Assembly: GCA_014238525.1 (NCBI GenBank)
Contig: JABAAY010000004.1
Location: forward strand, 1-40,203
Direction of reading: 5' to 3'
DNA: 40,203 nt
Origin: Mycoplasmatales bacterium
GTDB taxonomy: Bacteria > Bacillota_I > Bacilli_A > Mycoplasmatales > JABAAY01
Part shown: positions 11,947 through 35,404 of the stretch, piece by piece
Layout of the letters: each line of letters starts with the position of its first letter
How positions within the stretch are numbered: the stretch's first letter is position 1
The notes under the pieces: generated by a model
What the model saw: only the letters and a program-made list of their open reading frames with translations
Told to the model about the DNA's origin: nothing
Database searches by the model: none
Program-made: the position numbers and the translations under genes

Positions 11947-13176
11947 ATGAACAAAAAAAATAAAATCATAACGACGGCGCTGGGAGCAGGTGTGTTGGGA
12001 AGTGGAATTGCATTAACCGCAATTGCACAGGCATGTACTGATGATTCCCCAGCGATTGATCCACAACAAGAAGAAGCAATAAACACAATAACCACTGAAT
12101 TGAATGCGGTAACTTCCTACAGAGAAGGGGATATTCCTGATGGTATTTTGTGAGAACTACTTAGACTAGCTATAAACGATAGTGATTCTGCAGCAGTGAA
12201 TGTACTAGAGTGAAATTTTAGTACGATTTCTGCTGAAGATATTTCTGTTTCCGGATATGACTATACAGTTCAATTAAATAATTTCCAGGGACTTTTTAAT
12301 GATGGACAAGTTGTCATGCAGGCGACGCCTTCGACTTCTGTCTCGTGAGTGTTGAGAAACAGAAATGTAAATGATAGCATTGGACAATTAGCTTTGAGAA
12401 CGGTTTCTCTAGATGATATTTCTGCCTCAAGACAGAATGATCAAACAATTATTGCGGAAGTTAACACTTTATCTAATTATAATGTCAGTACTTCTCAACC
12501 TTCAGGCCTTGCCTTAGAGTTGTTAACAGCCATTGAATCAAATATCACAGGTAGTTATCCGTTTGGTGCCCTTACTTTGTCAACACTAACTTTTAGTGAA
12601 TTAAATTCCTCAAGAGTTTTTCCGTTTAATACTAGCGGAGAAAACAATATTTATTCGATAAATATCGACATTGCTTCAGGAGTTGCTGCTTCTGGAACTG
12701 AAACAATATCCGTTGCAGGCAGTATGATTATTGCTGTTGAGGTAAGTAACATCAATAATTTTGCAATTAGTGCAACAACAGGCGTTACAGGCGTAACGCT
12801 TGGTGACGAGGCTTTGCGTGATACTATTCGTACAGCGGTAAATCAATTTTCCAATTACGATTCAATGGTTGGTGTAACCGATGCTTTAGCCTTGGCAATT
12901 CTTCCTGTCCTTAATTCCACAATACAAACTGTGTATGGAGAGCCTTCTGCAACTTTACTTACTTTAAATTTCAATATGGTCACATCCACCGACACATTAA
13001 TATCCCCTAGCAGCACTAACTATAATATTGGGTTTATTTCCATTACAAGTGCGACGATTAGCACTGATTCGGGTCCCTTTACTATTAATGATATTAATTT
13101 CAGAATCACAATCGGCGCTAATAGTGATTTTACACTTGATGATCAGAATATCGCAGTTATAATACCTACCGTTTAG
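11947..13176 (+). CDS. Modular lipoprotein with three repeat modules
   Basis: A 409-residue predicted lipoprotein. The signal peptide MNKKNKIITTALGAGVLGSG is followed by a hydrophobic stretch ending IAQAC, with the Cys at residue 30 as the acylation site. The mature part is rich in Ser, Thr, Asn and Val and consists of about three degenerate modules of 115-125 residues. Each opens with an I--IN-L-NY-like helix (ELNAVTSY, EVNTLSNY, AVNQFSNY) and continues into a beta-rich part (SLTFxxI... then TGVTG). At least three Trp codons are TGA. The same module occurs in the other lipoproteins of the window. Function unknown; a surface antigen or adhesin is the default inference. Its stop overlaps the parB stop by four bases. 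Confidence 0.88.
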
Positions 13177-14901: not shown

Positions 14902-16371
14902 TTATATTGAACTTTGAAAAATTCCTTGGCCTGCACTAAAAACTCCAAACGCAATTAAAAAGTATACTGAATTACTAAGTGCATCAGTAATTGTTGTTAA
15001 TAAAGGAACACCCATAATTGCGGGATCAAGTTTTAATTTTTGAGCAATAACCGGGACACTACCCCCCACTATATTTGCTAATAAAACAGCAGGAATGATT
15101 GCTACTGTGGCAGAAATTGCAGCACCGTATTGTTCTGGTCCTATAATAGAACCATTAGGCCGTTCACCAACAATTAAATTTGTTATTGTATAAACGAAAA
15201 GTGATCTTGGTATTTCAATTACGGCTAAAACAGTTCCCACAATTAAAGAAATTCTAGACTCCAACCAAACAACCTTGAGGAGGTCGGTTTTTTTTATTTC
15301 TCCTATAGCAAGCCCTCTCACCACAATCGTTACTGCTTGACTACCTGTGTTGCCTGCAGTATCAGAAATAATGCCTGTTAAAACAGCAACAAAAGCAAAA
15401 ACAGTTGCCCCTTGGACAAAATTACCGCTATCTCGAAACAAAAGCAAAAATGCACTATTCACAAATTGATACAAAGAGGTGGAAATTATTAAAAAAACTA
15501 GTCACGGTATTCTTTTTCCGCTATTTCTTAGATATCCCGATCTAAAATAATTGTGTCTATCTGGTGTAATATTTGCTAATCGTTGTATGTCTTCTGTTGC
15601 TTCTTCTTCTATAACGTCGATAACATCATCCACACTGATAACGCCAGCCAATTCAAATAAACTATTAACAACAGGAATTTCCAGTAAATCATAATTTTTA
15701 ATAAACTCAACAACTTTTTCTTGATCATCTGCCGTCTTGACAAAAATTATTTCTTTTTTCATTATTTCTTCTATTTTTTTAGAATTATCAGTAATCAATA
15801 AATCTTGTGCAGTGACATACCCCTTTAAGTGGTTGCCTTCATCAACAATATAATATAAAGGTAATTTTTCATATTTTCCTATATTTTTTTTAATGAAATC
15901 TATACAACTAGCAACTGTCTTTTCAAGCCTAAAATAGATATAATCGATATTCATTAAACTTCCCGCGGTGTCTTCTCCGTACTTTAAAAGTTGGTTAATT
16001 TCTTTCCTTGTTTCTTTGTTAGAAGCTGCAATAATTCTTTTGGAAATATCGTTAGGCATTTCCTCTAGTAGTTCAACAAGATCATCACTATATAGTGAAT
16101 TTAAAATATTAGAAATTTCTTTACTATTCAAATTGTCAATGATTTGTTCTTGAAATTCCGGATCTAAATAACTGAATAGTGTTGCGCTGTCACCTGTTTT
16201 CAAGCAACGAAGAACAAATAGTTGTTCTTTTTCATCTAATTGTTGAAATAATTGTACAAAATCATAAATATTCGTCTCTTTAGCTCAATATCTAATTTTT
16301 TCTAAACTTTTTTTCTCAATTAATTCTTTTAGAGATGCAAGGTCAATGGATGATGCTGGTTTTTTTAGCAT
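14902..16371 (-). CDS. mgtE: Magnesium transporter MgtE
   Basis: A 489-residue Mg2+ channel/transporter. The cytosolic N domain is a helical superhelix (LFSYLDPEFQEQIID, LVELLEEMPND). A CBS-domain pair follows (LYYIVDEGNHLKGYVTAQDL and FELAGVISVDDVIDVIEEEA), then about five membrane helices with the family motifs GNTGSQAVTIVVRGLAIGEI and DPAIMGVPLLTTITDALSN, including the pore Asp. CBS domains sense cytosolic Mg2+ and gate the pore in known MgtE proteins. The start ATG at 16371 lies two bases after the stop of the diadenylate cyclase reading frame, so the two are probably co-translated. Some Trp codons are TGA. Confidence 0.95.
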
Positions 16372-16373
16372 TA

Positions 16374-16980
16374 TTATTTACCTCTTTTTTCTGTGATAAT
16401 TGAAAATATAACTTTAGAAATATCTGCCGATAGAACTCTATGAAGTTTGCCGTTAAGTGCGTACGAAATCTTGCCATTAGTTTCAGAAACAACAATTGCA
16501 AAAACATCTGATTGTTCACTCGCTCCAACTGCGGCTCTGTGTCTACTCCCATAATTAGATGACATCTTTTTTTTTCATGGGAAGGTACGAGGCAACAGAA
16601 ATGACTCGATCTCCTCTAATTATTAATGCTCCATCGTGTAAAGGAGAGGTTTTTTGAAACAAAGCAACTATGATTTGTGGTTGAATAATGGAATCCATTG
16701 GTACTCCTAAATCTATGTAACTTTTGACCTGTACTTTTCTTTCGATTAATATTAATCCACCTATTTTGTTTTGTGATAATTCAGAAATGGCTGTTGCCAA
16801 TTTATTAGCAATTTGTTTTTTTAATTCAATTCCTGATAGTTTTTTTCGTCCACCAAAAAATGTTTTAGATTTAGCAATTAAAGGTTGTAGAAAAGCAAAG
16901 TATCCAAAAAGAATAAACAAAAATATCACCATACTAAATGTGACAGCGGTAAGTATTAAAACAGTTTGTAGCGGATCCAT
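16374..16980 (-). CDS. cdaM: Diadenylate cyclase (CdaM-like), interrupted by a frameshift at an A9 tract
   Basis: This enzyme makes c-di-AMP from two ATP. The first frame (16980-16555) encodes one N-terminal membrane helix (residues 1-35), a linker, and the DAC-domain half with the DGA motif (SPLHDGALIIRGDRV). It ends shortly after SYLPMKKK. The second half, with the RHR motif (YGSRHRAAVGASEQSD), lies in another frame (16565-16374). The shift falls at nine T on the plus strand (16567-16575, A9 in the mRNA). Removing one A, or adding two, restores a single DAC protein of about 200 residues. A single-helix N-terminus matches Mollicutes CdaM rather than three-helix CdaA. It could be a real disruption, polymerase slippage, coupled translation of two halves, or a sequencing error. 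Confidence 0.85.
16567..16575 (-). repeat. Homopolymer A9 tract at the cdaM frame change
   Basis: Nine consecutive A in the mRNA directly after an ATG codon. The frame breaks exactly here; 8 or 11 A would join both halves of the diadenylate cyclase. It is a plausible slippage site. Confidence 0.8.
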
Positions 16981-16992
16981 AACTGTATTATA
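16981..16992 (-). promoter_or_regulatory. -10 box for leaderless cdaM transcript
   Basis: On the minus strand TATAAT (16992-16987) is followed by ACAGTT and the ATG at 16980. The remaining spacer to the lipoprotein gene (up to 17069) is AT-rich; I see no terminator hairpin with a T tract there. Confidence 0.6.
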
Positions 16993-17069: not shown

Positions 17070-19631
17070 CTATGAAGTAGCGCCAATATTCATTCAAGTA
17101 CCGGTGATAATTACATTGCTTGCAAAGGTGACCCCAGTGATTGTTACATTTTCACCATTAATTGCTCCAAAACTTGTTTGTACAGTATTTAGATCGTAAG
17201 TTCCCGTGACTTCGGTAAGTGTTATTGTGTATGTAGGAGTATCCCCCGCACCACCAGCGTCTGTTCTTTGAACAGAAGTTCCTAGAAGACCTCCTGCTGC
17301 TAGTGAATTAACATCTTCAACTGGAACACTTAATGCTGTGGCAAGTTGATTTATTAAAAACACTGCACTTGGAGAGGTTGGAAGAATAGTTGAAAAACTC
17401 ATTCTTTGCACGATCGCATGTATTTCAATTTCTCTGCTGTCTACTGGCACAATACCGCTAACGCCTGTTTCAGGGTTAATTGACAAAGAAGCACCGTCAA
17501 ATCCTATTGAAACTCTCATTTCTCCAGAAAACGAATCTTGATTGGAAAGAGTGTTAACAACAGGCGCAAGTGCAATTCTGACTTCGTATCCTGAGCTGGT
17601 TGCTGTAATATTTGATGCACTAATGGATGCAAAAAATATGCTTGTAATTGTAGCGTTTGGTTCGCTAATATTAATGTGTGCAGTCATTGCACTTAACATT
17701 TCTTCAGCCAAAAGACCAAGATTGTTTATATCTGAACTGTTGTAATTCCTCAATTCATTAACATCACTTATTATTTGAGCAACAAATGTGCTTCCACTTA
17801 AACTTAAACCCGTGGTACCATCTGTAGCAATTGTAAACGAACCGCTTGTATAATCAATTGTTGTCACCGCAGTGCCACCAATGATTTCTCCTGTACTCGC
17901 AGTTCCCGTCATTGCCACACTAGCAGTAAAAATATCCCCTGATTCTGAAATGTCTTGAGTAGTAATTTCGGTAAAATTCAACTCCCTTACAGTGTTGCCT
18001 GTGGATACATCGGATAAATTATTATTTATAGAAACTAAGTAATTTTGCGCCAATCTTCCTATTTGTTGTCCTACAATGTATGAACTAATCTCATTAATAG
18101 CATTAACGATTACACTTTCATTAGGTAAATCGGACAAAGTAAGTCCCGTTACGCCGCCTGATGCAACAGATAATGTGGAGGTTACGGGATCATATGAAAT
18201 CGTTGCCACGGCATTTCCACTAATTGCCTGGCCGTCATCTGCTGTTCCTGTCATTGCTATAGTGACTGTATATACATTACTGTTCTCGCTTAAGTCTTCA
18301 GTAGTTATAGGTGAAAAGGTAAGACTCGTTACAAAAAGAGAATTATCCGCGCTTTCAGTTCGTATGTTATTATTAATTGCTGTTAAAAATTCTGCTGTTA
18401 CTCCCGATACCTGTGAGTTCGCTCTGTAGTCTTGCAAACCATTAATGCTTGTAACTATTCTATCTTCAACATTTCCTTCATTAACACCTAATCCAGTGAC
18501 AGTGCCTGCAACTAGAGTTTCACCAGAAATTGTAAATGAAGTGTTTATTTGCCCGGAAATAACATCATCCGTTGTAGTTAAACCTGTAACAGCGCCTGTT
18601 GAAACCGTATACTCGTTATTTGCGAATCTAATGGCTGCATTGTTTATTTGAGCAAACTGCATACTTTGAATGCTCGAGGAAGGGTCTGTTGCAAGATTAT
18701 TATTTATTTCTTGTAAAATGCTTCCAGCCAACCCTGTTGGTAAATTACTAGGGTTTATTGTGTAGTTGGAAAAAACATTTATAGCATCTCTTATGAATGC
18801 TGAGTTTTGGGGATTTATAATTTCAAGTTGTGAAACGCCTGTAACGCTTAAAACATCGTTTTGATTTGCTATAGCAACTCTGATTGTACCAAAGACGTCT
18901 CTAGAGATTTCAGAACTGCCGGAAGGTATATTTACTGTTGTTCCGCTCACAGAAAAATCAGCTTGAAAATTAGTGAATCCTTCTCCTGTAGTTGAAACAT
19001 TAGTGTTTTGTATTGGAGTAAATTGTAATGAGTCTAAAACATCTCCCTCTAGGTTGTTTCCAATTACAACATTTGTTTGAGCAATAAATTCTTCAGACAA
19101 ACCTGAATATATATTAGTTCTTGAATAATTATTTGTTGCATTTAAAGCAGAAACAATCTGACTAATAACTGCGGTGTTTGACACTTGTAAATTACTAACG
19201 TCAGAGGTTGCGGTGTCAATACTAAAATTTTCATTAACAAATCTAGCAGCAATAGTTATTGTGCCGGTTACAAGCAAGCTTGAGTTAGTTTCTCCACTTA
19301 TGTCGATATTAATCGACAATTCATTTGTAGTGCTATCGACAATAACGTTTTGGCTTTGCAATGCGGCAAAAGTTAGAGAATTAAGCTCTGAATTGGGCAC
19401 GCTGCTGGAAATTCCGTTATTGATTAAACTTATCACCTCTGTTTGGAAACCATCCGGACTAAAAGTCATTCTGTTGTATTGGTCAAGTCCGTTTAACTCA
19501 TTTGTGAAGGCAACGCTTCTATCTGTTGTAGGTTCAGAAGCACATGCTTGTGCAACGGCTGCTACCGCTACGCCGGTTCCTAATGCTGTTACACCCATTA
19601 AAGTTGCTAGTTTATTTTTGTTTTTTTTCAT
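17070..19631 (-). CDS. Large modular lipoprotein with about seven repeat modules
   Basis: A predicted lipoprotein of 853 residues. The signal peptide MKKNKNKLATLMGVTALGTG runs into VAAVAQAC, with the acylated Cys at residue 30. The mature protein contains about seven degenerate tandem modules of 105-130 residues, starting near residues 40, 155, 285, 390, 505, 615 and 735. Each opens with a helix like INGLQDY, INVFSNY or VNELRNY, followed by SLxFxxI, and closes with a beta segment such as TGVTGL or TTGLSL. It is rich in Ser, Thr, Asn and nearly free of Trp; one UGA near the end adds seven codons after a Trp (WMNIGATS). Function unknown; surface exposure is inferred. Unlike many first genes here, it has a leader of about 20 bases after a TATAAA box. 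Confidence 0.9.
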
Positions 19632-19688: not shown

Positions 19689-20339
19689 TTATTTGATTTT
19701 TTTCAATCTATGTTTGTTTACTGTGACTGTAAAATCATTTATTAATACGAGAGTATACAAAGCCAAACCCAATACGAAATATAAGTCGCCAATGTTCGTA
19801 ATAAAGGAAACTTGACCGCGCGCGCCTGTAAAATACTGCCCTCAGTTTATATAAATGTAGTCTATAACAACCGGAAGTCCGTCTCGATTAGTAAAAATAA
19901 ATCTATCAACAAAATGACTAAATAAGCCTGTGAACATCAATCCCACAAATAAAGTGTGTGAAGATTTTTTAGTAAACAACAGCAGCAGCAATAATGGCGC
20001 TAATATGACAACGGAAACAATTCATATTCCCACCTGGTCTCGTCCTCCAGGAAAGGTGCCAAAGAATAAACCCTCGTTGCCAATTAAGTAAATTCCGAAA
20101 GCAGAAGTTGGTTCAGCTCTTCCTGTGGGAAAGTTATTCGTTGGTATTGTGTTAAATCCATAAATACTTGGATTGATAACAGCATAGACCGCAATAAGCC
20201 GTATGGATATGAAAATCAGAATCAAAAATAGAAAAATAAAAATTTTGCTAAAAATTATTTTTTTTAACCTTTGTTTGTTTGTTTGTTCTTTTAATTTTTT
20301 AAAATTCACTGATTTCTGCCTGTACAGTTTCTGAAACAT
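19689..20339 (-). CDS. lspA: Lipoprotein signal peptidase (LspA, signal peptidase II)
   Basis: A membrane aspartyl protease that removes the signal peptide of lipidated prolipoproteins. It has about 216 residues and four membrane helices. Family motifs are present in diverged form: GNEGLFFGTF (canonical NxGxAFG), HFVDRFIFTNRDGLPVVIDY with the first catalytic Asp region (canonical N-x-x-DR...VVD), and FITNIGDLYFVLG (canonical FNxAD) with the second Asp. The start is uncertain: ATG at 20339 or GTG at 20309, both overlapping the end of the upstream gene. An additional basic N-terminal segment precedes the first helix. The substrates are nearby: five lipoproteins with AQxC lipoboxes. Confidence 0.82.
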
Positions 20340-22266
20340 CTTGGGCAAAAATGTTTTTGCCGATGTACTCTCCACACAATAAAGAAACATCTAATTTCAT
20401 TGCAGTAATTAACAAAGTATGTGTGTCAATATTTATTAGAGCGGTTTCTATTTTGTTCTTTTTTATGTTATCTAATGATATCTTAAAGCCTTGTAATAAG
20501 GACCTATCCTTATGAACAGCATTAATGGTATACGGCTTAAAAAGTACAAAAGCTGGTTGGATTTTAGGAAGAAGTTCATGGTGTTTTTTGCTTTTGTAAT
20601 CAAAATTACTCAAAATTATTCTAATTTTATTTTCGTTTAATGTTTTTATTTTTTCAAGGAGCGTGTTTGTGATGGATGATAAATGTTCACAATTAAAGTC
20701 AATCATAATCTTGCTTGGGTTTATCCCAAAATTACGAATGCGTTCGACAAAAGAATGTGGATTAAATCATTCGTTATTTATAGAGCCTGCGTCATAAGTT
20801 ATGGCAAGGGGTTGTTTGGTGTTGCCCTGCAAAACGTATTGATTAATACTTAGTCCGGCGAAATACCTAAGCATTGTATCGTACAAAAATTTATCATATA
20901 CATAATCAAATAATTCTTTAACGTTGGAAAATCGATTCATCTTCGAAATATAGTAACGCGAGTTATAAAAAATGATTTTTGAATTAACTGAGGAAACGAC
21001 TGGCATGTATTCAACTTGTAAATCCCTTATGGGGAATAAATTAGATAAAGCACTAAATTTTTTGCTTTCTGTAATTCCTTCGTTTCATATCTTAGGGTTA
21101 AATATGGACACATGCTTACATTTGGTTGAATCAGGTTTTTGTAAAAAGTTCTTTTGATTGTAAGTCTCTAATTCTTCTAAAGAGTTAGAATGAACACCAT
21201 AATAACTCACTACACACCGCGGATTTATGCTTTTGTATTTGTTTTCGTTTTTTTGAATTTTTTTCTTAATGTTTAAAGCAGATTGTTCCAACAACAATAA
21301 GAAGTTGTCGTTTTTTAAGTGGTAATCTGGAGAGTCCATTTGCTCGCTAGAAACAACATTAGAGAGATTTTCAATTGGTTTAAATAATCCATATTGATCT
21401 TTTGTAATTTCAAAAAGCAAAATATCATCATTAGAATATGTGTGACCCAACTCATGCCGCAATTCATTAAGGAAAGACTGTTTTGCTCTTGTGCCGTGTT
21501 TAATTTCAAGAGTTTTTAATGCTTCGAAACCAAACGTTACAAAAAAACCAGCAGTTACATTTTTGATATTTATAAATTTTTCTATCTCAGTAAAAGCCAA
21601 GGAAGATCTGATAAATTTTTCATAAACGTATATGTTTACAATATTTAATTGAAATGCACTATTTACAACGGAAGTTATATAGGCAAAAGCAATAGAAAGA
21701 AGAGATAGAGAAAGAAAACTTCATAAAACACCATATAAGTTTGTGGTTTGATCAAGAGATGGGAAAGCCCTTGTTGGTGTAATAAAATAATAAATCAATA
21801 TTAGGCCCACAGTTTGAAAAATAATTGAAAGAACAATAGCTATGCTTTTATATTTTTTTAAAATAAGAGAAACAATTCAATAAAAAATAATTGCTACGAA
21901 GACAACAAGAAAAATTACATTGGTTTGTGTGCTTGATGAGTAATTAGCTAAATCAATTACCCAACTACTTGCAATAGTAAGAACGCCAACAATCGGATTT
22001 ATAAATATTCCTATCACCAAAGGGATTATTACGGCATAACTTATAGAAAAAAAGCTTTCCGTTGTTCTTTGAAATAACAAACTTTGGAATAAGTTTAGGA
22101 GAATAATGATCGCAGCTCATTCAAGAAAAATAACAGCACTATACACCTTTCTAAAATTGGAATTAATAAATGGCTGAAGAACAGCTCATGTCGTGGAAAA
22201 AATAATAATTATTAATAAAAGGAGTGCAAGATTAAGGAGAATTTCAAATACTATGGAATCTAACAT
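20299..22266 (-). CDS. Multi-pass membrane protein with degenerate GGDEF and EAL-like domains
   Basis: A 655-residue protein. Residues 1-215 form about six membrane helices. Residues 223-390 resemble a GGDEF fold (FGFEALKTLEIKHGTRAKQ ... DDILLFEITKDQYGLF), but the GGDEF loop is replaced by KDQYG near 289-293. Residues 418-655 align along their whole length with the EAL fold (VEYMPVV, LAITYDAGSI, PSKIMIDFN, IRIILSNFDY, LLCGEYIGKNIFA), yet EAL reads YNS near 434, DDFG reads SNFD near 553, and most metal ligands are absent. It is therefore probably not a c-di-GMP enzyme but a sensor or scaffold. The ATG lies six bases after the tmRNA CCA end. LspA follows with an overlap. The fold call comes from motif order seen by eye. 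Confidence 0.75.
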
Positions 22267-22724: not shown

Positions 22725-23681
22725 ATGAATAATAGAAAAAGTAAATTTAAAAAAGTGTTTTTGGGTGGCATTGGCGGTGCTGCAGTTATTACAAGTGTTG
22801 TAGCACAGGCATGTGGCGATGATAGTTCTCAATTCATAAATCAAAATTTTATACTGAAAGAAATAAACTCTTTTTCAGAAAATTTTAGAATAAATGAACT
22901 TACCCAAAATCAAGAAAACATGCGAGACGGAATTTTAAATACTGTAAACAATTTAAACGCTGGAATATATAATCAAAATCCCGCACGCACAACATATGAT
23001 CTTCTAGCAAATATAAATTTTCCCGAGCTTTCAATTTCAAATATTCGTGTGGTTCCTGGTTCGTTCAATCAGGATTTTATAATAAACTATGATTCGCCAA
23101 TAACTTTTATTGGTCAGAGCACACAATTCGAAGGAATTAACAAAAACTTTTCAAACGTACAAAATAATAGCGGCACGACTATTTTGATTACATTAAGCGA
23201 TAAAATTATACAAAATTTTGGGATTTTAAATATTGCTGCCGTTAATTCTTCAGAAAAAATTACTTTGCCAACCTTCCTGAGTCGTTTAGATATTGAAATT
23301 CTTTTGAATAAATTATCCAATGCTCAACAAAACGAAATATTTGACTATCAAGAATCACCTTCTTTTTATTCCTTAATTTCGTTTATTAATGCATTAGGTA
23401 TTCAACAAGGTGTAGATTTTTTTGGTGGTCAAGGATTTTTATTTTTAGAAAATTTTACTTTCGAAAATATTATTGAATACAATGAACAAACACTAAAAGG
23501 AAGAATTTTTATAAAAAGGACTGATTTTGGTATTCGAATCGGTAGTGGGGTGTTCAACAGTCAGTGGCAATTGCCTGGTGGGCAATCCGCTCATTTATTT
23601 GAAGAAAGTGTTGTTTTATCTTTTGAAGTTTTCCTGGGCTCTGGTGTGGACGGCAACGACTTGATAAGTTTTTATGTATAA
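22725..23681 (+). CDS. Lipoprotein with about two modules
   Basis: A 318-residue predicted lipoprotein. The basic N-terminus MNNRKSKFKKVFLGG is followed by a short hydrophobic stretch ending SVVAQAC, with the Cys at residue 30. The mature part contains one module opening EINSFSENF and a second, more diverged one opening LLNKLSNAQ (around residue 190). It is Asn- and Phe-rich and beta-like. It is divergent from tmRNA. The stop TAA (23679-23681) overlaps the birA start, so birA is probably translated from the same message. No function can be assigned beyond a surface lipoprotein. Confidence 0.85.
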   Translation: MNNRKSKFKKVFLGGIGGAAVITSVVAQACGDDSSQFINQNFILKEINSFSENFRINELTQNQENMRDGILNTVNNLNAGIYNQNPARTTYDLLANINFPELSISNIRVVPGSFNQDFIINYDSPITFIGQSTQFEGINKNFSNVQNNSGTTILITLSDKIIQNFGILNIAAVNSSEKITLPTFLSRLDIEILLNKLSNAQQNEIFDYQESPSFYSLISFINALGIQQGVDFFGGQGFLFLENFTFENIIEYNEQTLKGRIFIKRTDFGIRIGSGVFNSQWQLPGGQSAHLFEESVVLSFEVFLGSGVDGNDLISFYV

Positions 23682-30881: not shown

Positions 30882-31478
30882 CTACGAAGTGGGAGGGTTT
30901 GGAAATATTTCGACAAAATTAGTTGCATTAGCTTGCACACCGAATGAATTAGCATTTATTTGAGGTCTTTGATTCGAATCAAGTGATGCAGTTATAACTA
31001 TCATAAAACCAGGAGTATTGTTTGCAGCGCCTCCTCATATTCCTCTATTAGAAACTCCTCCAGAAGAAAGTGATGCTGTAACAAGTAACTCGGTAATTGT
31101 AATAGTAAACATGTTACTATCTTCGTCAAAGGCTACGTTAGAATTCTCCAAAGTGCCGATATAAACGTTATTTAATGTGATTGGTTCAAGATCTGTGTCG
31201 GTTGGACTGGCTGTGGGCGTTCCGCCCATCATATTGTTATAAATTAATACTCTTGCTCCTCGTACAAAGTCTCTTTGAATTTGAGTTTGGGGATTCTCGA
31301 GATTAAATATTCCAGAATCAAAATTATTAAGATCGTTCACTATTTCTTCAATATTGTCGGTTGTTGTTGTTCCAGTGGCACACATTTGAGCAACCGCTCC
31401 AATTGTTGTTGCGCCTGCAAGAGTTGTAATTCCTAATGCCGCGGAAATGATTTTTGTATTTTTGCTTTTTTTATTCAT
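30882..31478 (-). CDS. Small lipoprotein, one module
   Basis: A 198-residue predicted lipoprotein. Signal peptide MNKKSKNTKIISAALGITTL ... GAVAQMC, with the Cys at residue 33. Methionine just before the Cys is unusual. The mature part has one module: EEIVNDLNNFDSG, then the YNNMMGG region, ITLNNVYIGTLENSNV and a beta-rich stretch FTITITELLVTASL. A UGA Trp extends the frame by about 50 residues to TAG at 30884-30882. The start has an AGAAGG Shine-Dalgarno site 10 bases upstream rather than a leaderless promoter, and lies 26 bases after the uvrA stop, so it may be co-transcribed with uvrA. Confidence 0.85.
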
Positions 31479-34414: not shown

Positions 34415-35404
34415 ATGAAGAAAAAATACAAAAAAATATTCAAAATATTTTCGTTATCCTCAATAGGTGCGTCTTCAACTGTTCTGGTTGCTCAATCGTG
34501 TTCCAATATTCCTTCTGCTCCTCCGGAAATTCTCAATGATTTAAGTATTATCTTTGCCAACTTAAATCATAATAATTTGAATGTGAACACGTCTCCTGAA
34601 ACGGAAGTGATACTGGATAGTTTTTTAGATGTGATTAATGCTTCTACTTCCCTCCAAAGCATTGATGAAAATTTTGATGAAATTTTAGCAATGAATAATC
34701 TTTCTGTACAAAGTATAACGGACGAGGGTGGTGGTGCTTTTCGTATATCCTTGCCTACAACAGTCACAATAGAGGTCAGAAATTCCAAAATTTCTGCCTC
34801 ACAAACAACAATAAAATTGCAAAATACCACAATTAATTTTTTTCTTGTTGTTAGAACATCTAATGATTCAGAAATAAATTTTTCAACCGTTTCACTTCCT
34901 AATAATGATTTTGAATATGTCTTTGATAGGGATTATTCAAACTCTCAAATAAACAGTTTATTTACTAGCACTATTTTAGAAACAATTAACGCTACTTCTC
35001 CTACGAAGGGATCTTTATTAAGAAGTTCTGCGAATGATAATGCAAATTTTAATTTACTGGAAACAGAAATCAATGGCAATTATAATTTTTTAAGTGTTCG
35101 TGGTTTTGTTCACAAACTAAATTCTTTATTGCTTTCGCCTAACTCAACATTTACAAATGGAATTTTTGCTCCACTTGAAGGCGGAGAATACGGAATTTCC
35201 TTAACTTGAGACAACATGAGTCGAACTGGGATTTTAACTTTTAGTGATTCCTCGGTTTTTTCTAGAGTGGAAATGGATGGAACTGTTGTTAACGATTCTT
35301 GATTAGAAAATAATACAGAAGTGTTTACAAACTTTCGTTCTCCCTTAAATTTGTCTTTTACAATTGTGCAAACAAGTTCTGAATTGGCAACCTTTCTATT
35401 TTAA
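34415..35404 (+). CDS. Lipoprotein with about two modules
   Basis: A 329-residue predicted lipoprotein. Basic start MKKKYKKIFKIF, a hydrophobic stretch ending VLVAQSC, with the Cys at residue 29. The mature part begins with SNIPSAPPEILNDL and has a module opening IFANLNHNNLN, followed by MNNLSVQSIT; a second opens SQINSLFTSTILETINAT near residue 190. UGA Trp codons at 35210 and later continue the frame to TAA at 35402-35404. Divergent from uvrA. Function unknown. Confidence 0.86.

Follow-up and report, generated by a model that had tools for sequence, protein, structure and literature searches.

In Mycoplasma pneumoniae (MPN244) and Mycoplasma bovis (MbovP496), the diadenylate cyclase CdaM is a short protein in which an N-terminal membrane helix precedes a DAC domain that carries a DGA and an RHR motif (PMC5508000, PMC13022847). 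Genes frameshifted within poly(A) tracts have been described in Buchnera and Blochmannia, and slippage during transcription is said to repair them (PMC3017870 and references in it); eight such genes, with unaccelerated evolution, are present in Blochmannia vafer (PMC3017870). Bacterial slippage on runs of nine A or T has been documented, in some cases at high efficiency (PMC5009743), and the slippage sites of Thermus thermophilus dnaX and of IS elements are conserved and functional (PMC1088944, PMC5009743). The cdaM gene described here likewise encodes a DAC domain with both motifs, a short product and an N-terminal membrane helix, and its ortholog in the sister species is an enzyme of standard CdaM size; unlike MPN244 and MbovP496, however, it has its two motifs in different reading frames. 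The frames part at a run of nine A, a run length common to this gene and to the dnaX and IS-element sites, although the tract is absent from the sister whereas those sites are conserved.

The gene lies in a window of 40,203 nt (the whole stretch of DNA that was analysed) from the MAG of an uncultured mollicute (G000; 666 kb, 127 contigs, 77% complete). This organism uses genetic code 4 with TGA as tryptophan, as transketolase, argS, gltX, uvrA and other genes are unbroken under table 4 alone. The sister species is represented by the only further genome of the genus, G001 (contig JABABL010000003.1 of the MAG 'Mycoplasmatales bacterium isolate bin5p'); it is a short-read assembly at ~14x coverage, and the gene order at the cdaM locus is common to both genomes. 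For their comparison, samples of 367 kb (G000) and 363 kb (G001) were drawn, of which about 126 kb align, and an order-wide survey of DAC and GdpP covered 99 genomes, G000 included. The features of the locus are given below.

14902..16371, minus strand: intact gene directly downstream of cdaM, putatively for an mgtE-like Mg2+ transporter
16374..16980, minus strand: cdaM, diadenylate cyclase gene with a frameshift; matched by PF02457 in two frames, each time over the curated cut-off; ortholog in the sister intact
16374..16565, minus strand: downstream ORF of 63 aa; RHR half (GSRHRAAVG), DAC profile 81-119, own ATG at 16565
16555..16980, minus strand: upstream ORF of 141 aa; hydrophobic N-terminal helix and DGA half, DAC profile 2-77
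16567..16575, minus strand: A9 tract (plus-strand T9), the point where the frames part; ACC followed by A8 in the sister
16987..16992, minus strand: TATAAT, resembling a -10 box, with 6 nt between its end and the cdaM ATG; shared with the sister

Read on the minus strand, the sequence across the break is ...cttcccATGAAAAAAAAAGATGTCATCTAA..., with the nine A corresponding to plus-strand T at 16567-16575. The upstream ORF, which begins at the ATG at 16980, ends in an out-of-frame tail (KKKDVI) and lacks the RHR motif; it overlaps the downstream ORF by 11 nt. Both motifs are intact, one in each half, and they lie in different frames under tables 4 and 11, in contrast to the sister CdaM, which has both in one ORF. 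No in-frame UGA codon occurs in the window allele or in that of the sister. A profile search of the genome returned these two ORFs as the only DAC matches in G000, both of them over the PF02457 curated cut-off, and no second copy of the cdaM locus was found in the MAG. An earlier note on this DNA had placed the switch between the two DAC halves at the A9 tract after an ATG, as is borne out by the ORFs and the profile matches, and its frame arithmetic was right: one A fewer or two more at the tract would give a continuous CdaM, and one more gives the wrong frame. A minus-one shift of the ribosome on A AAA AAG was rejected, because by the same arithmetic it also ends in the wrong frame. The position of the TATAAT box suggests that the cdaM mRNA is leaderless. 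A search for RNA families over the cdaM locus gave nothing above threshold, and an inverted repeat that flanks the A9 tract (16551-16566 / 16608-16623) was given no weight in any reading.

Elsewhere in the window, five lipoprotein-like genes (11947-13176, 17070-19631, 22725-23681, 30882-31478 and 34415-35404) share an N-terminal signal (..VAQAC/VAQSC); their dN/dS values, 0.08-0.19 in the four of five that were measured, are mostly above those of the rest of the window, and the 853-aa protein of this group looks repeat-built. A 655-aa membrane protein (20299-22266, minus strand) matches the EAL domain (Pfam E 1.4e-9). Its EAL signature appears replaced, with FYNSRYY where Y-E-A-L is expected, and the domain is probably, judging from these residues, a non-catalytic c-di-GMP-type domain in a mollicute.

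The origin of the lesion can be read from the sister, whose CdaM is intact (203 aa; 87% DNA identity to the window gene). At the break site the sister has ATG ACC AAAAAAAA G and the window ATG AAAAAAAAA G, that is, ATG-ACC-A8-G against ATG-A9-G. The distance from the loop to GSRHRAA is constant among the intact relatives listed, most of which have Thr at the ACC site. The sister sequence and the loop length kept in relatives therefore point to a net 2-nt deletion, and on this comparison the lesion is a net loss of 2 nt in the window lineage, with the A9 tract as its product. Comparison with relatives thus upholds a frame disrupted here and intact in the sister, but places the origin of the disruption in a 2-nt loss and not in a slip of a pre-existing tract. 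If an A8 had been read as A9, a codon would have to be missing as well, and if the tract were truly A11, two substitutions and a loss would be needed, so that a simple homopolymer artefact is less likely; the one-base miscount previously put forward as the form of an assembly error fails, as a change between A8 and A9 alone would not account for the difference from the sister.

The statement that all other genes are intact held up: over the 40.3 kb aligned to the sister, and leaving gene ends out of account, the indel in cdaM is the only one within a gene that changes the frame without compensation, and some 30 further A/T runs of 8-9 inside window genes stay in frame. Across the ~126 kb aligned there is one net frameshift in G000 (cdaM) and one in G001, in a different gene. 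A single lesion over this length indicates that the G000 assembly is clean, yet an error rate of one per ~100 kb is possible for either MAG. The frameshift in G001 (L109:3091-5806 compared with G001:C11:24108-24112) affects a long gene that is open over 905 codons in G000 and whose N-terminal part looks FolD-like.

Both halves of cdaM are under purifying selection, with dN/dS relative to the sister of 0.070 (5' half) and 0.065 (3' half), comparable to the intact genes nearby (Nei-Gojobori method, table 4); the 3' half has 5 nonsynonymous and 17 synonymous changes over 63 codons. A rough Poisson bound disfavours, at about the 5% level, that the gene was wholly free of constraint over more than some 15% of the branch since the split. 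Selection on both halves thus leaves three options, a recent lesion, a bypassed one or one that is not real, and any null allele would be recent. Like recent pseudogenes of genome reduction, cdaM is frameshifted and dispensable in some relatives; unlike them it has no further decay, and its partner GdpP is intact. Neither relaxed selection nor additional lesions, by which pseudogenes are recognized, are found in the gene, although a very young pseudogene is still compatible with these data.

To evaluate slippage at the tract length in question, A-runs were counted in 295 sampled coding sequences of G000 relative to synonymous shuffles. Runs of A9 (12 versus 48 expected), A10 (1 versus 14) and at least 11 A (2 versus 15) were depleted; A8 was not (165 versus 144 expected), and shorter A-runs were as common as expected or in excess. 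Coding A-runs of the sister drop in the same way at 9 and above. By the reasoning of PMC1088944, the length at which depletion sets in marks slippage-prone lengths, so the depletion of runs of at least nine A in both species suggests that slippage, in transcription or replication, matters at 9 A and becomes costly at this length in the lineage. T-runs are depleted at 8 and above in the sampled coding sequences of G000 and G001. In Buchnera transcripts, homopolymer insertions outnumber deletions (PMC5574713), and since added bases dominate there and one added A gives the wrong frame here, productive mRNA would be expected to make up a small share at most. The proposal that slippage may rescue the gene is sustained in part: the A9 tract, the intact motifs, purifying selection, the intact GdpP and the clean assembly all fit it, but the dominant plus-one slip does not repair the frame. 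Similar to the Buchnera and Blochmannia cases, the genome is of the AT-rich host-associated type and the gene has one frameshift in a long A tract (at least 9), is otherwise intact and does not evolve faster; in contrast to them, it belongs to a mollicute, is the one such gene in the compared part, has a tract that arose from a 2-nt deletion and is known here from DNA alone.

Next, we examined the c-di-AMP pathway. The GdpP phosphodiesterase is intact in G000 (656 aa), and its retention suggests that c-di-AMP is made now, or was made until recently, in this lineage. Among the 99 genomes of the order, a DAC gene is present in 67 and 32 have no DAC match; full-length GdpP occurs together with DAC in 43 genomes and alone in none, while 24 have DAC only and 32 neither, an association whose Fisher value is inflated by relatedness because many of the DAC-less genomes come from two families. 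DAC is missing from whole families and also from G016, which belongs to another family than the main DAC-less two, one that otherwise has DAC genes; G016 lacks full-length GdpP as well. In G000 a KtrA-like subunit adjoins a KtrB-like transporter. This KtrA-like protein (L065:830-1507, minus strand) has Val in its RCK_C segment at the position of an Arg in the aligned KtrC of B. subtilis. In KtrC/KtrA the corresponding Arg is in contact with c-di-AMP (PMC5508000), so the downstream need for c-di-AMP is uncertain. The earlier note had called c-di-AMP synthesis usually essential. This agrees with M. pneumoniae, whose cdaM could not be disrupted and appears essential (PMC5508000), but not with the 32 genomes that have no DAC match, nor with M. 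bovis, in which a cdaM transposon mutant is viable and devoid of c-di-AMP (PMC13022847).

The explanation that we favour, tentatively and with slightly less than even confidence, is that cdaM is a recent allele with a net 2-nt deletion, probably leaky through slippage on the A9 tract. The ancestor would have had ATG-ACC-A8-G in the lysine-rich loop that joins the DGA strand to the RHR helix, and a net 2-nt deletion in this loop would have fused the sequence into ATG-A9-G. RNA polymerase would then slip on the nine A and produce a mixture of mRNAs. Those with one A fewer or two A more would encode full-length CdaM, made at a lowered level, whereas the majority would yield the 141-aa product, which is inactive and has no RHR motif. 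We infer that the allele is probably both young and leaky. Several points weigh against this explanation: the MAG is 77% complete and in 127 contigs; insertions dominate in Buchnera (PMC5574713) and plus one is wrong here, which leaves rescue to minority transcripts; the depletion of A9 may stem from replication slippage and not from transcription; and the KtrA-like protein without the c-di-AMP-contacting Arg leaves the downstream need in doubt. It is improbable, in our judgement, that the species lives on a permanently frameshifted single-copy synthase, with all enzyme coming from slippage on A9 and c-di-AMP low and set by transcription error.

Most of the remaining likelihood is shared by a recent null allele and an assembly error. 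In the former, the deletion would be real and slippage negligible, c-di-AMP synthesis would just have been lost in the strain or species, and erosion of the gene would be under way; the 32 DAC-less genomes of the order (whole families and G016, the latter also without full-length GdpP), the viable M. bovis mutant (PMC13022847) and the KtrA-like protein without the key Arg make this a reading to be taken seriously, albeit unlikely, given that selection shows no relaxation, GdpP is still intact and the event would need to be very recent. Somewhat more doubtful is an error of assembly or consensus calling, or a consensus that took in a variant from a minority strain, with cdaM intact in the population. 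The break falls at the longest A run of cdaM in a single MAG of 77% completeness and 127 contigs, and the sister, a short-read MAG of about 14x, has one comparable frameshift in the same comparison; against this, the change consists of 2 nt lost rather than one base miscounted in an ancestral homopolymer, about 126 kb of G000 contain no further net frame break and other long A/T runs stay in frame, and the MAG has no second copy of the locus.

The two other readings have very low probability. The downstream half does have an ATG of its own at 16565, as had been pointed out, overlapping the end of the first ORF by 11 nt, and a structure model built from three sequences (mean pLDDT 55, low confidence, and so a hint only) would put the break in a loop, so that two translationally coupled polypeptides of 141 and 63 aa might form one DAC domain. 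This ATG, however, is the conserved loop Met that is also present inside the intact chain of the sister, which makes a split enzyme improbable; the enzyme is a single chain in all intact relatives, with no conserved second start, no Shine-Dalgarno-like sequence was found before the ATG at 16565, the first chain ends in out-of-frame residues and the break divides a compact domain, leaving the idea of coupled polypeptides with little in its favour beyond the ATG. We regard as just as improbable a maintained regulatory or phase switch, in which the A tract would be kept and slippage, in transcription or replication, would set the level of CdaM. The tract has the length of the apparent slippage threshold of the lineage, and the DAC gene of G055, another genome of the order, is broken at the same loop; yet the tract and the two-frame layout are missing from the sister, which makes such a switch improbable, the other intact relatives have the gene in one frame, and the arrangement is seen in one genome only. 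The G055 break (G055:C1:1310800-1311150, L034) was rejected as independent support, as it is a 1-nt loss in A7, giving A6 against A7 in near-identical relatives, with several other frameshifts nearby, and is better read as ordinary erosion or error. G055 itself is a repeat-rich genome of 2.1 Mb.

Enzymes sustained by transcription errors have so far been described mainly in insect endosymbionts. Slippage-type frameshifted genes being already described in Buchnera and Blochmannia, the cdaM of the window would be a further case of that kind. If the lesion is an assembly error, the lesson is limited to the annotation of MAGs. If it is real and the allele leaky, a mollicute would join them with a signalling enzyme kept going by errors of transcription and, given the tight link between DAC and full-length GdpP in the order, the gene would offer a way to follow the loss of c-di-AMP signalling, with G000 at the first step.
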